Source: a virus
Length of the DNA stretch: 64,000 nucleotides
IMG/VR virus record: IMGVR_UViG_3300025914_000009
Coordinates: 1-64,000 of that record
Reading direction: 5' to 3' (one strand)
Notes under the pieces: generated by a model
Seen by the model: the letters and a program-made list of their open reading frames with translations, nothing else
What the model was told of the DNA's origin: nothing
Database searches by the model: none
Shown: positions 15,365-59,732 of the stretch, piece after piece
Position numbering within the stretch: position 1 is the first letter of the stretch
Layout: each line of letters starts with the position of its first letter
Program-made: the position numbers and the translations under genes

Positions 15365-18300
15365 TTATTTAAGTGGTTGAAGAGGCATTAGAGGTAAAGA
15401 TCTCTGAAGCTTCATTACCTGGAGCATCTTCTGGTAATCTCTCAGTTCTGAATCATCGTATTGAGATGATCCTGTCAGGTTACCTGCTGCATCATACCTT
15501 GTTATAGTCCTCGAAGGGCTTGCAAAGTCATTGTGGCTTGCTCCACTATAGTTGAACATTGCATTAGGCCCAAAGTAAGTAGCAGACATACCACCATCTG
15601 TTTGAGGAACAAATCTGTAGTCATACAGATTCTCATAAGCTGCAAGTCTCTTGTTCTCAAACTCATTCTTAGCATATTTGTCAGATAAGCTATTGAGAAT
15701 CATTTGATTAAATTGTCTTGTCTTAGATCTTGCTTCAGATTGTCTAACCATTTGGGTATCAGCTATTCCAAGATTCTTCATATTGGCATCATTTACTAAT
15801 GCAACATTCTTATTAGTGATATCATCTCTAATAGCCTGATTTGTTCTGAATTCATCTCCCAAAGTTGCCTGATCTGCCTGATATTTCTGTGCTGCGAGAG
15901 TTCCTATTGCTGCTGGATTATTAGCTCCAGTTCCAACAGCTCTCATACCAGCATTCAGAGTCGCCTGGTTCTGATTCAGTCTATCCTGGAAGCTAACTTG
16001 ATAAGGGCTATATAATTGAGGCTCAAACCTTTGTGAAGGTACTGGCTCGACTTTATTAGTAGCTATTCCATATAACTCAGGCAGAATCTGATTGAGATGT
16101 AAAGGTTCTACATTACTTGGAAGCTTTCCTCTTTCAGGGATCTGCAGCTCATCATAAGGAGTTTTTACCTTTCCAGGCTTAGTCCCTGGGGTTTCCGATG
16201 TAAGTGGTATATCAGGTAAAGTGTATGGAGTGAATGGGCCAGGATTAGGCACCTCAGGCTTAGGAGTATTAGGAGTAGGTCTTGGTGTGCTTGGCCTTAC
16301 CCCATATCTTGTCCCTTCTCCTTTAGTCATAGTACCCATCACGATACTCAATTCATCAGGATCCATTTCACTGATTTTTTTATCAGTAAGTGGGCCAAGA
16401 TCATATCTGTAAGGATGTCCACCTGTCCATTTGTTTATAGCATCTTTTGCTGACATATCTCTATATCCCTTACTAGTGAGAAGGTCTCTCATTGCTTTCT
16501 CACCAGTTTTCCTATCAGGAAACACAGCAAATCCATCCTTATCTGTCTTAGCACCATATTTCTGTGCTAATTTTCCATATTTTATGTTTCCAGGATTATT
16601 GTTCCTATCTGCACGAGTGGGATCATTTCCTGGGTCTGTTCCCCCATCCTCGTAAAAAGGGATTGAGGCACCTCCCTTGGCCTTCTTCATTTTACCCTGT
16701 GACATTGCATGAGGGTCAAGACCATGAGCTTCAGCCATATCAAGCATAGACTTCTGAAGAGAAGCCAGTCTCTCTTTTTTAGAAGCTAGATCTTCCATAC
16801 CCATCTTTCCTCCCTGCATCATTACCCTTCCTGCATTGAATTTCAGTTGCTCGAACTTACTTGCTGGGTTGGCATCATTGACAAGATCTGCACCTTTAGT
16901 ATTCAGCATATCATACCTCTTCTCTTTATCAGCTATAGCTTTTGCTGCTTGTTTAAACTTTGTTTTTGTTCCAGGAACATACATATTACCATAAATAGTA
17001 AGATTTCCACTGTTATCTCTTGCTGCATATTCACCCCCCTCTACTTCAACAGGGTTTCCATTGTATTGCATCCCTATACCCCCTTGGGCATGTGAGTCAC
17101 CATTGAACTCTACAGTTCCTCCATCATAAGGATTATAACTCTCCAGGTTTGCATTTCCTCCCCACATAGTATTTATTTGTCCACCATCGTCATACATAAC
17201 TCCTCCGTTAGCCATACCTGCTATTGTACCAGGAGTGGGCATAGCAACAGGAGCATTTCTCTGGAACTCACTAGTACCATATCCATACCTCTTTATGTTG
17301 TCTTTCATGGACTGTATAGCTGGGTCATTAGACTGTATATTATAAAATGTTTGCATCCTCTGATCTGGAGTCATCCCTTTCAGATCAGATCTATTATTAA
17401 ACTCATATAAATAATTATACATCTTCGGGTCAAGTAGATCTCTATAGCTCTTTGCCCTGTTCTTATCCATCATGTGAGGCAAGACTCCTGATCTAATGGA
17501 TTCATTTACAAGATCTATTCCTTTGGCTGTTTCCATTTGAGGTCTGTCCATAGCAGCAAGTGCTCCAAAAGCATTAGTTCCGGCTATACTACCATGCCTT
17601 GGATCATAAGGTTGAGGCTTCACAAGCGAAGGTTTCGTAGGGTCTCCTGATAGAAGATCACCAAATGCAGCTTTACCAGCTGCTACCATACCAAAGTATT
17701 GCTTCTGTTTCTTGGTAAGCTTCTTTCCATGAGCTGTACCATCTTTCAGCATCTCTTTAGCCTTATCTGAGCTTAGGGTTCCCCCTTGGGCATACTCACC
17801 AGTCATCCATGGAATCCATTGTTCGATAAGATCTGTAGTGTCAGATCCTCCTCTCGCCAATCCACCATTTTTGTATTCTCCTGTCATCCAGGGGATCCAT
17901 TGCTCCAGTAGATCAGTAGTATCACTACCACCTCTGGCAGTACCACCATTCTTATAAGTACCTGTTCTCCATGCCACCCACTGTTCAAGCAGATCAGTTG
18001 TATCTGATCCTCCTCTTGCAGAACCTCCATTAGCATATTGATGAGGACTGAATACACTCATATTGTCAGGGATTATTCCACCCTTCTTATACTTATCATA
18101 TCCAGGTTGAATGAATCCACCCATATCCATATCAGCAGTTATCATGCTCATAGCATCATTGCGCTCAGTTTCACTCCAGTCACCAGGTGCAAGCTTTCCA
18201 CCATTTTTATGAAACCCATGATGTTTCTTAAAGGTTTTAGCAAGAGCTTTTCTCCTTGGAGTACATGTGGATTTAGTCATAGGAGTGCAATATCCTTTAT

Positions 18301-47015: not shown

Positions 47016-47099
47016 TGGGCTTTTTTGGAAGTAATATATAACTCTTTGGGATGTAATGCTATAAAAAGCAAAAATCCTCCCAATATGAGAGGATCTTGA

Positions 47100-47170
47100 G
47101 GCAGATATCTGAATCGAACAGATGTATAGGGCTTTTGCAGAACCCGACCTTTCCACTTGGCTAATCTGCC
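47100..47170 (-). tRNA. tRNA-Cys (GCA)
   Basis: Acceptor GGCAGAT/ATCTGCC, anticodon loop CTGCAAA, T-arm ATCTG-TTCGATT-CAGAT. Last tRNA of block 1; its codon type (TGC) is codon 13 of leader 1. Confidence 0.9.
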
Positions 47171-47174
47171 TTAT

Positions 47175-47248
47175 GCACGTATCGGGGGAATCGAACCCAG
47201 TCCTCCTACAGTTTTGGAGACTGCTTGGCCACCATGGCCTGACACGTG
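47175..47248 (-). tRNA. tRNA-Trp (CCA)
   Basis: Acceptor CACGTGT/ATACGTG with one G-U, anticodon loop CTCCAAA, T-loop TTCGATT. Block 1; Trp is codon 9 of leader 1. Confidence 0.88.
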
Positions 47249-47252
47249 TGTA

Positions 47253-47325
47253 GACTACCCTGCAAGATTCGAACTTGCGTTCTAACATCCGTAGTGTTGA
47301 GTCCTTCCACTGAACGAAGGGTAGT
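47253..47325 (-). tRNA. tRNA-Arg (ACG)
   Basis: Acceptor ACTACCC/GGGTAGT, anticodon loop CTACGGA, T-arm GCAAG-TTCGAAT-CTTGC. It would read CGN via inosine; leader 1 uses CGT. Its 5' base abuts the CCA of the tRNA-His upstream. Confidence 0.88.
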
Positions 47326-47397
47326 GGGGTGGAGTGCAGAGTCGAACTGCCTTACCTGGTTCACAGCCAAGTCCATTCACCGAATTGGTATCTCCAC
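47325..47397 (-). tRNA. tRNA-His (GTG)
   Basis: Anticodon arm CTTGG-CTGTGAA-CCAGG. Acceptor GTGGAGA/ACTCCAC, discriminator C73 and an encoded CCA (47325-47327) that ends on the first base of tRNA-Arg. Block 1. Confidence 0.87.
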
Positions 47398-47399
47398 AG

Positions 47400-47472
47400 A
47401 TGCCCCTGGAGGAATCGAACCTACCATCATGAGATCCAAAAGCTCACGCCCTTCCATTGTGCTAAGGGGCAT
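47400..47472 (-). tRNA. tRNA-Gln (TTG)
   Basis: Acceptor ATGCCCC/GGGGCAT; anticodon loop TTTTGGA with a C-U mismatch at 31-39; T-arm GTAGG-TTCGATT-CCTCC. Reads CAA, which is codon 15 of leader 1. Confidence 0.82.
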
Positions 47473-47482
47473 TAAAAAAATG

Positions 47483-47555
47483 TGGTACAGAGTGGACTTG
47501 AACCACCAACGCCCAGCTCTTCAGGCTGGCGCTCTACATTGGAGCTACTGCACCA
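47483..47555 (-). tRNA. tRNA-Phe (GAA)
   Basis: Acceptor TGGTGCA/TGTACCA, anticodon arm CCAGC-CTGAAGA-GCTGG, T-loop TTCAAGT. Block 1; Phe occurs three times in the leader 1 sensor. Confidence 0.92.
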
Positions 47556-47559
47556 TATG

Positions 47560-47632
47560 AGCCTGAGCAGGAACTCGAATCCTGTTCTGATGCTTACAAG
47601 GCAACTGCACCACCATCAGTGCTTCTCAGGCT
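47560..47632 (-). tRNA. tRNA-Thr (TGT)
   Basis: Acceptor AGCCTGA/TCAGGCT, anticodon loop CTTGTAA, T-arm CAGGA-TTCGAGT-TCCTG. Block 1. Confidence 0.9.
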
Positions 47633-47636
47633 TATG

Positions 47637-47713
47637 TTGGGTGAATAGGATTCGAACCTACGCTTTCAGCCTCCCAAAGGCTGCCGGAAAAACCTGGCTT
47701 CCGTACCACCCAA
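47637..47713 (-). tRNA. tRNA-Pro (TGG)
   Basis: Acceptor TTGGGTG/CACCCAA, anticodon arm CAGCC-TTTGGGA-GGCTG, T-loop TTCGAAT. First tRNA of block 1, 9 nt behind the attenuator terminator's T-run. Confidence 0.9.
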
Positions 47714-47721
47714 TATAAAAG

Positions 47722-47752
47722 AAAAACCCCCAGTCTTGGTAGAAAGGGGGTT
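47722..47752 (-). terminator. Attenuator terminator of tRNA block 1
   Basis: Minus strand: AACCCCC (47746-47752), loop with TTTCTACC, GGGGGTT (47725-47731), then TTT. It lies between leader ORF 1 and tRNA-Pro. Its 5' arm can instead pair with the leader segment at 47788-47800 (8 contiguous pairs GGGAAGGG/CCCTTTCT including two G-U, plus GTTG/CAAC after a mismatch and bulge). Confidence 0.8.
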
Positions 47753-47773
47753 GACATGCAAGAGCTTTATATC

Positions 47774-47848
47774 CTATACATACATGACAACTCCCTTCCC
47801 TGGTTGAGGGCAGAAGGTAAACCACGTATGACGAAATACTTTATTCAT
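47774..47848 (-). CDS. Leader peptide 1 of tRNA block 1 (24 aa)
   Basis: ATG at 47848 to TAG, beginning 5 nt after the -7 box, so the mRNA is probably leaderless. Codons 5-16 read FRHTWFTFCPQP. These eight amino acids (Phe, Arg, His, Thr, Trp, Cys, Pro, Gln) are exactly the eight tRNAs of the block behind it, with no other amino acid in that stretch. From codon 17 (GGG AAG GGA GTT G) the RNA is complementary to the 5' arm of the terminator. I infer a regulatory peptide whose translation senses charging of these tRNAs; the peptide itself need not be functional. Confidence 0.85.
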   Translation of the reverse strand: MNKVFRHTWFTFCPQPGKGVVMYV

Positions 47849-47852
47849 AATG

Positions 47853-47884
47853 CAAATATATGGTGAATATTTTAATCCACCAAA
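47853..47884 (-). promoter_or_regulatory. Promoter of tRNA block 1
   Basis: Minus strand: TTTG (47881-47884), 20-nt spacer, TATATTTG (47853-47860). Geometry identical to the promoters of blocks 2 and 3. Confidence 0.8.
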
Positions 47885-47890
47885 AAAAAG

Positions 47891-47975
47891 TTGCACAGGT
47901 CAGATTCGAACTGACAAAGGCTAAAGCCCCGAGTTTTACAGACTCAGAAGGATCTCCCACTCCTGTCGCAGTGCA
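47891..47975 (-). tRNA. tRNA-Tyr (GTA), long variable arm
   Basis: Anticodon arm TGAGT-CTGTAAA-ACTCG, extended variable arm GGGGCTTTAGCC, T-arm GTCAG-TTCGAAT-CTGAC, acceptor TGCACTG/CTGTGCA with one T-T mismatch. Last tRNA of block 2. Confidence 0.88.
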
Positions 47976-47982
47976 ATGTAAG

Positions 47983-48065
47983 AGGAGAGCAGTGGCCCTG
48001 ATCCACATCCCCGAGGGAACAGTCAGCTTAGCAGGCTGCTCCTACATCGTGTAGGTTTACTCTCC
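47983..48065 (-). tRNA. tRNA-Ser (GCT), aberrant D and T arms
   Basis: Acceptor GGAGAGT/GCTCTCC and anticodon loop CTGCTAA are clear, with a long variable arm (TTCCCTCGGGGA). However the D-arm is a stiff CCTAC-ACGA-TGTAGG hairpin and the T-loop is ATCAGGG closed by GTGG/CCAC, lacking TTCRA. It is either a decayed or an unusual functional Ser tRNA. Leader 2 contains AGT codons for it. Confidence 0.6.
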
Positions 48066-48073
48066 TTATAAGA

Positions 48074-48165
48074 GGAAGGCTGAGGACTCGAACCCCACTC
48101 CTGCTCATCGCCGAGCCCTAGTTTTCAAGACTAGTCGCCGCTCCTGTGCAGCTGCATAACCTTCC
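48074..48165 (-). tRNA. tRNA-Ser (TGA), class II
   Basis: Acceptor GGAAGGT/GCCTTCC, anticodon arm CTAGT-CTTGAAA-ACTAG, long variable arm, T-arm TGGGG-TTCGAGT-CCTCA. Block 2; TCA occurs twice in leader 2. Confidence 0.88.
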
Positions 48166-48171
48166 TTATAG

Positions 48172-48245
48172 TATCCCTGGTAGGACTTGAACCTACAGAA
48201 CTCAGATTTTAAGTCTGATATGGTTACCTATTACATCACAGGGAT
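48172..48245 (-). tRNA. tRNA-Leu (TAA) with short variable loop
   Basis: Acceptor ATCCCTG/CAGGGAT, A73, anticodon arm TCAGA-CTTAAAA-TCTGA, T-arm GTAGG-TTCAAGT-CCTAC. The variable region is only GTTCT, although bacterial Leu tRNAs are class II. Reads TTA. Confidence 0.82.
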
Positions 48246-48250
48246 AAGTG

Positions 48251-48323
48251 TACCGAGGATGGGATTCGAACCCACACTTTTCAGTTCCTAAGACTGTTGC
48301 CTCTCCCGTTGGGCTACCAAGGT
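48251..48323 (-). tRNA. tRNA-Leu (TAG) with short variable loop
   Basis: Anticodon arm with loop CTTAGGA, T-arm GTGGG-TTCGAAT-CCCAT, variable region AAAGT. Acceptor ACCTTGG/CCTCGGT has two mismatches. First tRNA of block 2, 10 nt after the terminator T-run. Confidence 0.78.
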
Positions 48324-48332
48324 ATGTAAAAC

Positions 48333-48363
48333 AAAAAACCCAGCTGTAGAAACAGACTGGGCT
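48333..48363 (-). terminator. Attenuator terminator of tRNA block 2
   Basis: Minus strand: AGCCCAG-T-CTG, loop TTTCTA, CAG-CTGGGTT, then TTTTTTG. The 5' arm GCCCAGTCTG (48353-48362) can alternatively form 10 contiguous pairs, two of them G-U, with CAGGCTGGGT in the leader (48397-48406). Confidence 0.85.
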
Positions 48364-48385
48364 AAAAAATAAAGTCTAATGAACT

Positions 48386-48454
48386 TTACATACTATACCC
48401 AGCCTGTCTGTGTAACAGGAGTGAACTGGAATAGTATGATAGAAGATTGAACAT
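48386..48454 (-). CDS. Leader peptide 2 of tRNA block 2 (22 aa)
   Basis: ATG at 48454, 5 nt after the -7 box, to TAA. Codons 4-14 read LLSYYSSSLLL, using CTT, CTA, CTC, CTG, TTA for Leu, TCA, TCC, AGT for Ser and both Tyr codons. The block behind it is Leu, Leu, Ser, Ser, Tyr and nothing else. Codons 17-20 (CAG GCT GGG T) form the antiterminator strand against the 5' arm of the terminator. As with leader 1, a ribosome stalled in the sensor codons would leave that strand free, while one reaching the stop would cover it. Confidence 0.87.
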   Translation of the reverse strand: MFNLLSYYSSSLLLHRQAGYSM

Positions 48455-48458
48455 GATG

Positions 48459-48490
48459 CAAATGTAATAACTCTTTTTGAATTTTCCAAA
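48459..48490 (-). promoter_or_regulatory. Promoter of tRNA block 2
   Basis: Minus strand: TTTG (48487-48490), 20-nt spacer, TACATTTG (48459-48466); a full match to the Bacteroidota consensus. The leader ATG is 5 nt downstream. Confidence 0.82.
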
Positions 48491-48499
48491 TAATTCTAG

Positions 48500-48573
48500 T
48501 GGAGCTAAAGAGAATCGAACTCTTCTCAGGCTCCTTGCAAGGGAGCTTCGCCAGCCTTGGAACATGTAACCCC
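48500..48573 (-). tRNA. tRNA-Ala (TGC)
   Basis: Acceptor GGGGTTA/TAGCTCC with G-U pairs, A73, anticodon arm GCTCC-CTTGCAA-GGAGC, T-arm AAGAG-TTCGATT-CTCTT. Last tRNA of block 3. Confidence 0.87.
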
Positions 48574-48679
48574 TAAATCTGAAGCATAACCTTTCTACCT
48601 TCTCTGTAAACAGCTTTATTACAGTTATGAAATTGTATACCAGTAGATTGTACATGCTCCAGAGGTTCTTTCAAACCAG

Positions 48680-48752
48680 TTGCCTGAGGTGGGATCGAAC
48701 CACCAGCCTTCTTCGTATCAGGAAGTTGCTCAGACCATTGAGCTACCAGGCA
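48680..48752 (-). tRNA. tRNA-Ile (GAT)
   Basis: Acceptor TGCCTGG/TCAGGCA, A73, D-arm TAGCTCAATGGTCTGAGC, anticodon loop CTGATAC, T-arm GGTGG-TTCGATC-CCACC. The 106 nt between this tRNA and tRNA-Ala hold no feature I can support. Confidence 0.88.
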
Positions 48753-48756
48753 ATTT

Positions 48757-48838
48757 GATATAGGGGAAGAGGTGGTTCTTACACAGCCCACCTTCAGAAG
48801 TGTGCTTCTTCCAGGTTTTCACCCTCCCCCACTATATC
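48757..48838 (-). ncRNA. Rod-like hairpin between tRNAs
   Basis: Minus-strand ends GATATAG and CTATATC pair, and the helix continues through GGGGGAGG/CCTCTTCCCC for about 16 pairs with one mismatch. A small GGAAG...CTTCT hairpin lies in the apex. It is tRNA-sized (82 nt) but has no T-arm. It may be a processing spacer or a decayed tRNA. Confidence 0.4.
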
Positions 48839-48844
48839 TTCTAG

Positions 48845-48918
48845 TTGTCCCTAAGGGAGTTGAACCCTTGATCTTCTCATTATGAGTGAGCTGCTCTGAC
48901 CACCTGAGCTAAGGGACG
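48845..48918 (-). tRNA. tRNA with CAT anticodon (Met or Ile2)
   Basis: Loop CTCATAA, D-arm TTAGCTCAGGTGGTCAGAGC, T-arm AAGGG-TTCAACT-CCCTT. Positions 1-72 are C-A, an initiator trait, but the anticodon stem lacks the three G-C pairs of initiators. The body resembles tRNA-Ile2 (lysidine type), which would serve the ATA codon of leader 3. Confidence 0.8.
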
Positions 48919-48924
48919 ATTTGA

Positions 48925-48999
48925 GCCGAGAGTGGGGGATTCGAACCCCAACCTTCACCTTGACAGGGTGATACTGCAGCCATTACACCACACCCTCGG
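48925..48999 (-). tRNA. tRNA-Asp (GTC)
   Basis: Acceptor CCGAGGG/CTCTCGG, anticodon arm TCACC-CTGTCAA-GGTGA, T-loop TTCGAAT in a G/C-rich arm. Block 3. Confidence 0.9.
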
Positions 49000-49002
49000 A
49001 TT

Positions 49003-49075
49003 AGCCACATGCCGGACAATTACTTGACTGCTGTTAGAAACCAGCTGGTTTCCATCTTTTTTGTCCGCATGTAGC
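49003..49075 (-). ncRNA. Long interrupted hairpin between tRNA-Asp and tRNA-Glu
   Basis: Minus strand: AGCTACATGCGGACAA pairs with TTGTCCGGCATGTGGCT with two bulged bases. Inside is the palindrome GAAACCAGCTGGTTTC followed by TAAC. No promoter or T-run, so it is probably a processed spacer of the block 3 transcript. Confidence 0.4.
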
Positions 49076-49087
49076 TTTAATTATTTG

Positions 49088-49161
49088 TACTCCCAGTGGG
49101 AATTGAACCCTACATTTTTACCTTGAAAGGGTAATGTCCTTACCATTTAGACGATGGGAGC
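49088..49161 (-). tRNA. tRNA-Glu (TTC)
   Basis: Acceptor GCTCCCA/TGGGAGT, anticodon arm TTACC-CTTTCAA-GGTAA, T-loop TTCAATT. Block 3. Confidence 0.9.
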
Positions 49162-49182
49162 ATAGCTCCTCACCCTCCTTTA

Positions 49183-49395
49183 TTACATTAGCCATCTTAT
49201 CAATAGTTTAGCCTCCATTACTGGAAGAAATTTCGCATCCTGTATGTCCCCCAGGGGAATGGAGAAATTAATGATTCCATCAATAGAACCTGTCCAAAGG
49301 TTAGTCATGTACAGCATCCTTTCTTTATCCACATACAAAAGCTCAGCCTTTGGATTTTTCTTATACAACTCCTTTTTAATTTCATTTAGTTCCAT
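49183..49395 (-). CDS. Small protein encoded inside the tRNA block (70 aa)
   Basis: ATG at 49395, directly after the 3' end of tRNA-Gly. A longer TTG start would lie inside the tRNA and is unlikely. Product MELNEIKKELYKKNPKAEL, then a beta stretch LYVDKERMLYMTNLW and IPLGDI. No recognisable family. RNase cleavage at the tRNA end would leave a leaderless mRNA. It shares block 3 regulation. Confidence 0.55.
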   Translation of the reverse strand: MELNEIKKELYKKNPKAELLYVDKERMLYMTNLWTGSIDGIINFSIPLGDIQDAKFLPVMEAKLLIRWLM

Positions 49396-49396
49396 G

Positions 49397-49467
49397 AGCA
49401 CCAACAGGGAGTCGAACCCTGCTCTCAGGCTTGGAAGGCTAGTGCATTACCGAAATGCTTCTGGTGC
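49397..49467 (-). tRNA. tRNA-Gly (TCC)
   Basis: Acceptor GCACCAG/TTGGTGC, D-arm GCAT/ATGC, anticodon loop CTTCCAA, T-arm GCAGGG-TTCGACT-CCCTG. The anticodon stem has two weak pairs. Block 3. Confidence 0.82.
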
Positions 49468-49518
49468 ATAGAGGGGGACAGGTTATTTAATCCTTTAAGG
49501 GACTCCCCCAGACCCTGG

Positions 49519-49593
49519 TTGCGGGAGAGGGAATCGAACCCTCGTAGTTCAGCTTATGAGACTGAGCTGGCACCATCTCCAGTCTACCCCGCA
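49519..49593 (-). tRNA. tRNA-Met (CAT), initiator-like
   Basis: Starts TGCGGGGTAGA, close to bacterial tRNA-fMet (CGCGGGGT), with anticodon arm TCAGT-CTCATAA-GCTGA and T-arm GAGGG-TTCGATT-CCCTC. 1-72 is a weak T-A pair. The 3' end of the 85-aa gene overlaps its 5' end by 10 nt. Confidence 0.82.
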
Positions 49594-49841
49594 ATCTTTA
49601 ATTGTTTCTTTTCCTCCTCTGTCAAATCATAATCCTCTTTTACCAAAGTCAAAATTAAGTTAAGTTCCTCAGCAAATCTAATTCTTCCTCTAAAGACTAT
49701 TTCATCAAACCTCTTATTTCTGATAGACACTATACTAAAATCATGAGAGTCATTTTTTAATATAGTTATCTGATAAGAATCATCATGAAACTGCCATGGC
49801 AACCTCTGCTCGAAACCTAGTTCTAACAAGTGCTCTTTCAT
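49584..49841 (-). CDS. Small protein encoded inside the tRNA block (85 aa)
   Basis: ATG at 49841 follows tRNA-Asn directly; the TAG stop lies inside tRNA-Met, so processing of that tRNA would cut the stop off. The product is alpha/beta (DDSYQITILKNDSHDFSIVSI, ELNLILTLVKEDYDLTEEE). Family not recognised. Expression would follow block 3 attenuation. Confidence 0.55.
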   Translation of the reverse strand: MKEHLLELGFEQRLPWQFHDDSYQITILKNDSHDFSIVSIRNKRFDEIVFRGRIRFAEELNLILTLVKEDYDLTEEEKKQLKIAG

Positions 49842-49842
49842 G

Positions 49843-49915
49843 AGGACAGTTTAGGGATCGAACCTAAGACCTAAGAGTTAACAGCTCTTTGCTACTGCCA
49901 CTGAGCTAACTGTCC
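49843..49915 (-). tRNA. tRNA-Asn (GTT)
   Basis: Acceptor GGACAGT/ACTGTCC, anticodon arm AAGAG-CTGTTAA-CTCTT, T-arm TTAGG-TTCGATC-CCTAA. Block 3. Confidence 0.9.
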
Positions 49916-49959
49916 ATTTCCAGTTTTGTACTCCACGCAGATACTGGTAAACTGACCTG

Positions 49960-50031
49960 AGGACTTACAAGGAATCCAACCTTGATAGCTTGCTTAGAAG
50001 GCAAGAGCTCTATGCATTGAGCTATAAGTCC
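49960..50031 (-). tRNA. tRNA-Arg (TCT)
   Basis: Acceptor GGACTTA/TAAGTCC, anticodon arm CTTGC-CTTCTAA-GCAAG. The T-loop is TTGGATT instead of TTCGATT. Reads AGA, the Arg codon used in leader 3. Confidence 0.85.
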
Positions 50032-50034
50032 ATG

Positions 50035-50107
50035 TTGTCCCACTTAGAATCGAACTAAGGTCGCTAGTTTGTAAGACTAGAGCACTCAACCACTGTGCTA
50101 TAGGACA
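50035..50107 (-). tRNA. tRNA-Val (TAC)
   Basis: Acceptor TGTCCTA/TGGGACA, A73, anticodon arm CTAGT-CTTACAA-ACTAG, T-arm CTTAG-TTCGATT-CTAAG. Block 3. Confidence 0.9.
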
Positions 50108-50113
50108 ATCTTG

Positions 50114-50185
50114 TTCCCCTGGAAGGGCTCGAACCTTCAACCTTCTCCTTAAGAGGGAGTAGCTCTACCATTAAGCTACAGAGGA
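50114..50185 (-). tRNA. tRNA-Lys (CTT)
   Basis: Acceptor TCCTCTG/CAGGGGA, A73, anticodon loop CTCTTAA, T-arm GAAGG-TTCGAGC-CCTTC. Block 3. Confidence 0.9.
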
Positions 50186-50197
50186 ATTTTATCTCTG

Positions 50198-50268
50198 TAC
50201 CCCCACCAAGGATCGAACTTGGTTCCACTGGTTAAAAGCCAGTTACTTCACCATAAAGCTTTGAGGGT
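50198..50268 (-). tRNA. tRNA-Lys (TTT)
   Basis: Acceptor ACCCTCA/TGGGGGT, A73, anticodon arm ACTGG-CTTTTAA-CCAGT, T-arm CCAAG-TTCGATC-CTTGG. First tRNA of block 3, 10 nt behind the terminator. Confidence 0.92.
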
Positions 50269-50278
50269 AATTGTAAAC

Positions 50279-50309
50279 AAAAATCCCCAGAGCTTATGGG
50301 CTCCAGGGA
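50279..50309 (-). terminator. Attenuator terminator of tRNA block 3
   Basis: Minus strand: TCCCTGGAGC, loop CCATAA, GCTCTGGGGA, then TTTTTG. The 5' arm region GAGTCCCTGGAGC (50300-50312) can alternatively pair over 13 nt (one G-U) with GCTCCAGGGATTC inside the leader ORF (50352-50364). Confidence 0.87.
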
Positions 50310-50334
50310 CTCTTGTTTGCTGTTTATAAACCTG

Positions 50335-50415
50335 TTAATTAGCAGACAGTGGAATCCCTGGAGCAGATTTCTCTGCACCTCTTACAATCCCATTATCCAC
50401 TATTGAGTAAAACAT
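50335..50415 (-). CDS. Leader peptide 3 of tRNA block 3 (26 aa)
   Basis: ATG at 50415 (23 nt after the -7 box) to TAA. Codons 5-16 read IVDNGIVRGAEK: Ile, Val, Asp, Asn, Gly, Arg, Ala, Glu and Lys, the same set as the block behind it apart from Met, which the start codon supplies. Arg is AGA, matching the UCU tRNA; Ile is ATA and ATT. A GCAGA-GAAA-TCTGC hairpin covers codons 14-18. The next stretch, from codon 18, is the 13-nt antiterminator strand. This is the clearest of the three attenuators. Confidence 0.88.
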   Translation of the reverse strand: MFYSIVDNGIVRGAEKSAPGIPLSAN

Positions 50416-50438
50416 TGTTTGCTTTTTTAAGATTTTAG

Positions 50439-50470
50439 CAAATATAATACCACTTTTTGACATGGCCAAA
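50439..50470 (-). promoter_or_regulatory. Promoter of tRNA block 3
   Basis: Minus strand: TTTG (50467-50470), 20-nt spacer, TATATTTG (50439-50446). Consensus match, same spacing as the other two blocks. Confidence 0.82.
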
Positions 50471-59590: not shown

Positions 59591-59663
59591 GGGTGTGTAG
59601 CTCAATGGATAGAGTGTCTGACTTCGGATCAGAAAGTTAAGGGTTCGAATCCCTTCATGCCCA
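59591..59663 (+). tRNA. tRNA-Arg (TCG)
   Basis: Acceptor GGGTGTG/CATGCCC, D-arm TAGCTCAATGGATAGAG, anticodon arm TCTGA-CTTCGGA-TCAGA, T-arm AAGGG-TTCGAAT-CCCTT, A73. The only ordinary tRNA on the plus strand; it adds CGA/CGG decoding to the 25 minus-strand tRNAs. Confidence 0.93.
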
Positions 59664-59732
59664 CAGGTTTTATGGCTAATGGTGTTTGATTAGTATTGCA
59701 AGAATTTAGCAATAATCAGTACTATTAAACGC

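Follow-up and report, generated by a model that had tools for sequence, protein, structure and literature searches.

Why phages carry large sets of tRNA genes has been debated for decades, and the array described here raises the narrower question of how the transcription of such a set is controlled. The array lies in the first 64,000 nucleotides of the 124,983-base IMG/VR virus record IMGVR_UViG_3300025914_000009, a stretch that we call the window. Its 25 tRNA genes form three blocks (K, L and P), each headed by a promoter, a short leader open reading frame (ORF) and an intrinsic terminator. We present computational evidence that each block is very probably an operon under ribosome-mediated transcription attenuation, in which the block's own tRNAs are the sensed quantity.

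The assignment of this virus to the crAss-like phages is supported by a Pfam Crass_capsid match (4e-32) and by PHROG matches to portal and terminase. The tRNA genes occupy positions 47,098-50,268 of the minus strand and adjoin the terminase; the lower end of the array, at 47098, lies past the region covered by the original prediction made from this DNA. With default settings, ARAGORN called 21 of the tRNAs, relaxed settings added Ala, Ser(tga) and Trp, and Ser(gct) was read by eye. The original prediction had described the order of promoter, leader of 22-26 codons, intrinsic terminator and tRNAs in three successive blocks, and we located every one of these elements, all on the minus strand. 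The promoters, which were found by a pattern scan, share the form TTTG-N20-TA(T/C)ATTTG and are of the Bacteroidota type (-33/-7).

In the K block, the promoter (TTTG-N20-TATATTTG, 50439..50470) precedes a leader of 26 codons, MFYSIVDNGIVRGAEKSAPGIPLSAN (50335..50415), whose sensor is IVDNGIVRGAEK at codons 5-16. An intrinsic terminator, with a hairpin and T run, follows at about 50277..50310, and the tRNAs at 48497..50268 are Lys(ttt), Lys(ctt), Val, Arg(tct), Asn, Met, Gly, Glu, Asp, Met, Ile and Ala, with two small ORFs between them. The L block has its promoter (TTTG-N20-TACATTTG) at 48459..48490, a leader of 22 codons, MFNLLSYYSSSLLLHRQAGYSM (48386..48454), with the sensor LLSYYSSSLLL at codons 4-14, an intrinsic terminator at about 48331..48363, and Leu(tag), Leu(taa), Ser(tga), Ser(gct) and Tyr at 47890..48323. 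The P block begins with a promoter at 47853..47884 (TTTG-N20-TATATTTG) and a leader of 24 codons, MNKVFRHTWFTFCPQPGKGVVMYV (47774..47848), with the sensor FRHTWFTFCPQP at codons 5-16; its intrinsic terminator lies at about 47722..47751, and Pro, Thr, Phe, Gln, His, Arg(acg), Trp and Cys follow at 47098..47712.

The sensors contain the amino acids of the tRNAs that they precede. Met aside, the K block has nine amino acids, and every one of them is present in the K sensor; the L sensor likewise has all three of the L block (Leu, Ser, Tyr) and the P sensor all eight of the P block. To score this match, we used the fixed codons 4-17 of each leader, so that no stretch was chosen, together with the mechanically called tRNAs. 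Within these codons, 20/20 block amino acids (Met excluded) occur in their own leader, which agrees with the amino-acid match originally predicted; random relabelling of amino acids gave a mean of 50%, and not one of 200,000 relabellings attained 20/20 (p<=5e-6, the lowest value that the test can return). The two leaders of blocks with an Arg tRNA also use the codon of their own tRNA, as had been claimed: AGA with tRNA-Arg(tct) and CGT with tRNA-Arg(acg). The additional claim that no foreign residue enters a sensor holds within the stretches as they were originally delimited, but the residues directly before and after them (FYS, FN, NKV; HRQ, SAPG) are foreign.

The position of the sensor along the leader was examined in a profile pooled over 39 leaders from the window and related phages, for which the background share of own-block amino acids is 0.33. 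This share is 0.92-1.00 at codons 8-14 and has returned to background (0.3-0.4) at codon 18. Over codons 5-15, 89% of residues belong to the leader's own block and 5.6% to another block of the same phage. At codons 2 and 3, the own-block share is 0.08 and 0.15, under the background, as if sensing directly after the start codon were avoided.

Where the sensor ends, a strand complementary to the terminator begins. Every tabulated leader is followed by a hairpin and T run just before the first tRNA. In all three window leaders, pairing with the 5' arm of the terminator starts at codon 17-18, as first proposed. The 5' strand of this antiterminator corresponds to codons 18-24 of the K-leader (50345..50365, duplex -26.2 kcal/mol, p=0.002) and codons 17-23 of the P-leader (47781..47801, -23.7 kcal/mol, p=0.002); in the L-leader, it lies at 48396..48408, with a core duplex of -12.1 kcal/mol (p=0.024), and is also seen in the computed fold. 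Among 36 leader/terminator duplexes, 30 are stronger than those of shuffled leaders at p<0.05. Leaders pair with their own terminators at -17.2 kcal/mol and with swapped partners at -10.7 kcal/mol (permutation p=1e-5), which argues that the pairing is not merely a G-rich strand facing a C-rich one. The terminator and the antiterminator are mutually exclusive, and both are retained in the relatives though their sequences change, as the original prediction expected.

Folding was then calculated with part of the leader masked by a ribosome. In the window leaders, a ribosome at codon 6 or 12 yields the antiterminator, and one at codon 16 or at the stop codon yields the terminator. With the front edge of the ribosome placed 12 bases beyond the start of the A-site codon, upstream RNA in most leaders holds the 5' arm of the terminator when the stall is at or before about codon 14-16, and the arm is released at later stalls. 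When a leader is untranslated, equilibrium folding favors the terminator in nearly all cases. In most leaders, the antiterminator strand starts near codons 17-20, so composition and folding, which are independent measurements, place the boundary at much the same point.

Related phages were gathered by terminase searches, from phage records and by leader patterns. Matching leaders were found in L001, L006 (Leptolyngbya phage Lbo-JY46), L007, L008, L020, L024, L040, L041/L069, L043, L044, L045, L076, L210 (Cellulophaga phage phi17:2), L240, L250 and L306/L371, and the same promoter element is present before most of the homologous leaders. A search for leaders by promoter only missed many: the -7 boxes are variable, and some leaders lie behind a gene. 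Pattern scans with leader DNA returned mostly unrelated phages and one new member, L306, and a scan of genome contigs returned two contigs of metagenome-assembled genomes from distant relatives and no host. Some candidates were dropped: Thr-rich protein tails in L008 and tiny blocks from a scan with unrestricted block size were false, and a promoter-found ORF in L020 (MKVDSH...) overlaps tRNA-Glu and is not a leader.

Covariation was assessed in 11 phages with terminase identity down to about 26%, including the cultured phage phi17:2. In codons 4-17 of their leaders, 194 of 211 own-block amino acids are present, compared with 51 of 364 amino acids that belong only to other blocks; relabelling within each phage gives p<=1.2e-4, and most phages are at the 5e-6 floor. 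The leader codons track tRNA content, including the Arg codon box, in at least five divergent lineages of different block make-up, and this is what the original prediction anticipated for related phages.

Individual leaders illustrate how different the matching peptides can be. In phi17:2, the leader MKIQRLHLQELEQPIISGG, with the stretch QRLHLQELEQP, precedes Pro, Glu, Gln, His, Leu, Leu and Arg(acg); VQLTKTGITVIDKTKGARAY precedes Ala, Lys, Ile, Gly, Met, Asp, Thr, Val, Arg(tct) and Met; and MKTNYCTYNNSNWSFSY precedes Tyr, Ser, Ser, Asn, Trp and Phe, followed by a final tRNA with the anticodon GCA (Cys) that is annotated as a pseudo-tRNA. The Cys codon in this third leader predicts a tRNA-Cys at that place. 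The gene in question is the pseudo/OTHER tRNA with a GCA anticodon at 18037-18111 (minus strand) of L210, or about 91043-91116 of NC_021798. In L024, the leader LSLHSSRPYQQLSLL covers 7/7 amino acids of Pro, Gln, His, Arg, Leu, Leu, Ser and Tyr, leaving aside a tRNA-Glu at the end of the block, and the thirteen amino acids found in the leader MMNNWFNIIDTAFATRNCGKVG are precisely those of its block. The L020 leader RNNWFNNAAAFTTTDCG serves Ala, Gly, Asp, Asn, Trp, Thr, Arg, Phe and Cys, and NNWHNTFNNFTPDQQD is from L043, where the P block includes Asp and Asn.

Further evidence comes from tRNAs that have changed block (Cys, Asp, Asn, Glu and both Arg isoacceptors), as the leader codons mostly followed them. 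With the shift of Cys to block 1 (L006, L040, L069), leader 1 gained Cys codons and the sensor of leader 3 lost them. With the shift of Asp and Asn into the P block (L043, L076), their codons were gained by the P-leader and are gone from the sensor of leader 1. A Glu codon is found in the leader when tRNA-Glu lies inside the block (phi17:2) and is absent when this tRNA is at the block end (L020, L024); in L020, Glu is missing from the leader because the tRNA-Glu has its own promoter. Across the relatives, blocks with Arg(tct) have AGA in the sensor and blocks with Arg(acg) have CGN, and where both Arg tRNAs are in block 1 (L043, L076), leader 1 has AGA and CGC. Wherever a block includes a tRNA for Arg, the codon box used for Arg in its sensor agrees with the anticodon of that tRNA.

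Phage Lbo-JY46 (L006 1789-6110) was deposited with a cyanobacterial host, yet it has Bacteroidota-type promoters (TTTG-N20-TANNTTTG) and crAss-like relatives; its actual host may be a member of the Bacteroidota that accompanied the culture.

Other readings of these data were weighed. The match could be due to chance or to a reader's selection of convenient ORFs and stretches, given that many short ORFs surround any tRNA array. The statistic on fixed codons 4-17 involves no chosen stretch, however, and for the Steigviridae phages crAss001, cr111_1, cr112_1 and DAC15, as for three unrelated arrays (L325, L337, L352), it gives values like those obtained with permuted identities. These seven arrays at background indicate that the system is not a property of any tRNA array, and together with the position profile and the codon 4-17 statistic they refute chance, leaving it a negligible probability. 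Alternatively, the ORFs could encode small peptides with their own function, the terminators could simply part tandem operons, and the match would be a by-product of composition or descent. Close relatives do share leaders by descent, and a terminator is kept in all blocks, as this explanation would have it. Nevertheless, unrelated peptides match unrelated blocks (phi17:2, L020/L024, L043, Lbo-JY46), and residues follow the tRNAs that changed block, with residues of other blocks down to 5.6%; we consider functional peptides strongly disfavored and very improbable.

A T-box-like leader that binds uncharged tRNA directly would resemble attenuation in that T-boxes also antiterminate at tRNA shortage. 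No T-box match was found with Rfam, however, and a translated ORF with many different codons fits poorly with a single specifier loop, so that this reading has next to no probability. The closest competitor accepts the leaders as translated test messages but supposes that stalling acts on something other than termination, namely the stability of the RNA, the processing of the tRNAs or translation. The composition match by itself shows only that the charging of the block's tRNAs is sensed, and equilibrium folds are ambiguous for many relatives. This competitor is unlikely in view of the intrinsic terminator that follows every leader and ends just before the first tRNA, and of the complementary strand, whose position within the ORF is fixed and which begins where the sensor ends.

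Several observations count against transcription attenuation or against the strength of our comparisons. Pairing is weak in the L-leaders of L007 and L069 and in the K-leader of L006, and a stall at codons 15-17 would already mask part of the antiterminator. For about half of the relatives' leaders, equilibrium folding favors the terminator even with a stall at codon 12; in these, the antiterminator, being transcribed first, would have to form first. The Cys codon of L043 and L076 lies only outside the sensor. In Lbo-JY46, the K-leader contains Val and Ser and the L-leader contains Tyr, and no such tRNA was found in those blocks. The K-leader of L007 and the middle leader of phi17:2 need a GTG start. 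Also, the scan output was in part interpreted by hand to assign blocks and choose leaders, and close relatives among the phages are not independent.

On balance, covariation, the kept terminator and antiterminator, and a switch point at the sensor end lend computational support to the trp/his-type attenuation originally proposed. Under this mechanism, polymerase would start at the block promoter and a ribosome would start the leader ORF. If all amino acids of the block are available on charged tRNAs, the ribosome would cross the sensor and cover codons 17-24, so that the terminator would form and transcription would end before the tRNAs. If any one of the block's charged tRNAs is scarce, the ribosome would stall in codons 5-16, codons 17-24 would pair with the 5' arm of the terminator, no terminator would form, and the tRNAs would be made. 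The sensor would thus act as an OR gate over 3-13 amino acids, and sufficient charged tRNA would close its own operon through product feedback. We infer from the sequences that the leaders are translated, that transcription and translation are coupled in the host, that read-through follows stalling, and that the phage benefits. The benefit would be a supply of new tRNAs in place of those destroyed by host anticodon nucleases or lost through phage takeover; the trigger may be nuclease attack or a general shortage of charged tRNA. Making up for nuclease damage is an appealing purpose, since phage tRNAs are known to act against such defenses (PMC10264068, PMC11555353), but starvation or phage-driven demand would work equally.

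A few features of the arrays deserve separate mention. Only four bases separate the -7 box from the start of the L- and P-leaders (48455-48466 and 47849-47860, minus strand), and the messages of these leaders may be nearly leaderless, unlike that of the K-leader. The two small ORFs inside the K block (49584-49841 and 49183-49404, minus strand) encode 85 and 73 amino acids and have no match in Pfam or PHROG; L001 has similar ORFs at the same places. A lone tRNA-Arg(tcg) lies far from the array, at window positions 59591-59664 on the plus strand, and no leader of the array type was seen just upstream of it. Among the Met tRNAs of the window array, none of the initiator type was seen. Initiator-type Met tRNAs (GGGCTCATAACCC) occur upstream of a leader in L044 (3716-3791) and L240 (3070-3142). 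Their location outside the attenuated block is as expected, because elongation codons cannot sense the initiator tRNA.

The principle of this control is known, and trp/his-type attenuation has been modeled quantitatively (PMC1183508). The attenuators of trp, his, thr, ilv and leu and that of pheST share with the phage leaders an ORF with codons for the operon product, an intrinsic terminator and a competing antiterminator, as well as the computed termination of untranslated RNA. Unlike these, the present system is found in phages and targets tRNA genes, so that the product is the sensed molecule; its sensor reads 3-13 amino acids, and serial attenuators divide the amino acids among them. T-box riboswitches likewise antiterminate on a shortage of charged tRNA, upstream of genes that restore it. 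T-boxes, however, bind tRNA directly and have been reported mainly upstream of tRNA-ligase genes in Firmicutes (PMC2494555); with Rfam, we found neither T-box sequence nor specifier-loop structure, and no attenuator family. More distant crAss phages of the Steigviridae (crAss001, cr111_1, cr112_1, DAC15) likewise have 12-25 tRNAs near the terminase, but without matching leaders.

Phage tRNAs have been proposed or shown to replace tRNAs cut by host defense nucleases (PMC10264068, PMC11555353). These papers treat which tRNAs phages supply, whereas we propose a switch that supplies them on demand; in PMC10264068, nothing on an attenuator, leader, operon or promoter was found. Among open PMC papers, we found no description of tRNA-operon attenuation. 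What is new is the tRNA-gene target, the phage setting, the many-amino-acid sensor and the serial attenuators that share out the amino acids. As an attenuator of tRNA genes, and as one whose sensor spans up to 13 amino acids, the system would have no described precedent known to us.

In the window phage, the proposed attenuators together cover all twenty amino acids, with Met through the start codon only. Leaders of this kind also predict tRNA content, as with the tRNA-Cys of phi17:2, and their architecture is a ready biosensor design. Whether they work as proposed is directly testable in phi17:2, which is cultured on Cellulophaga baltica. A leader that tests the tRNAs of its own operon means that the phage would treat tRNA shortage, amino acid by amino acid, as a signal for expression. 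It is likely that a widespread group of crAss-like phages uses serial multi-amino-acid attenuators as self-contained feedback circuits, which sense the pool of charged tRNAs through a trial translation and switch on only the set that is short, which would give these phages a built-in counter to host defenses that cleave tRNA.

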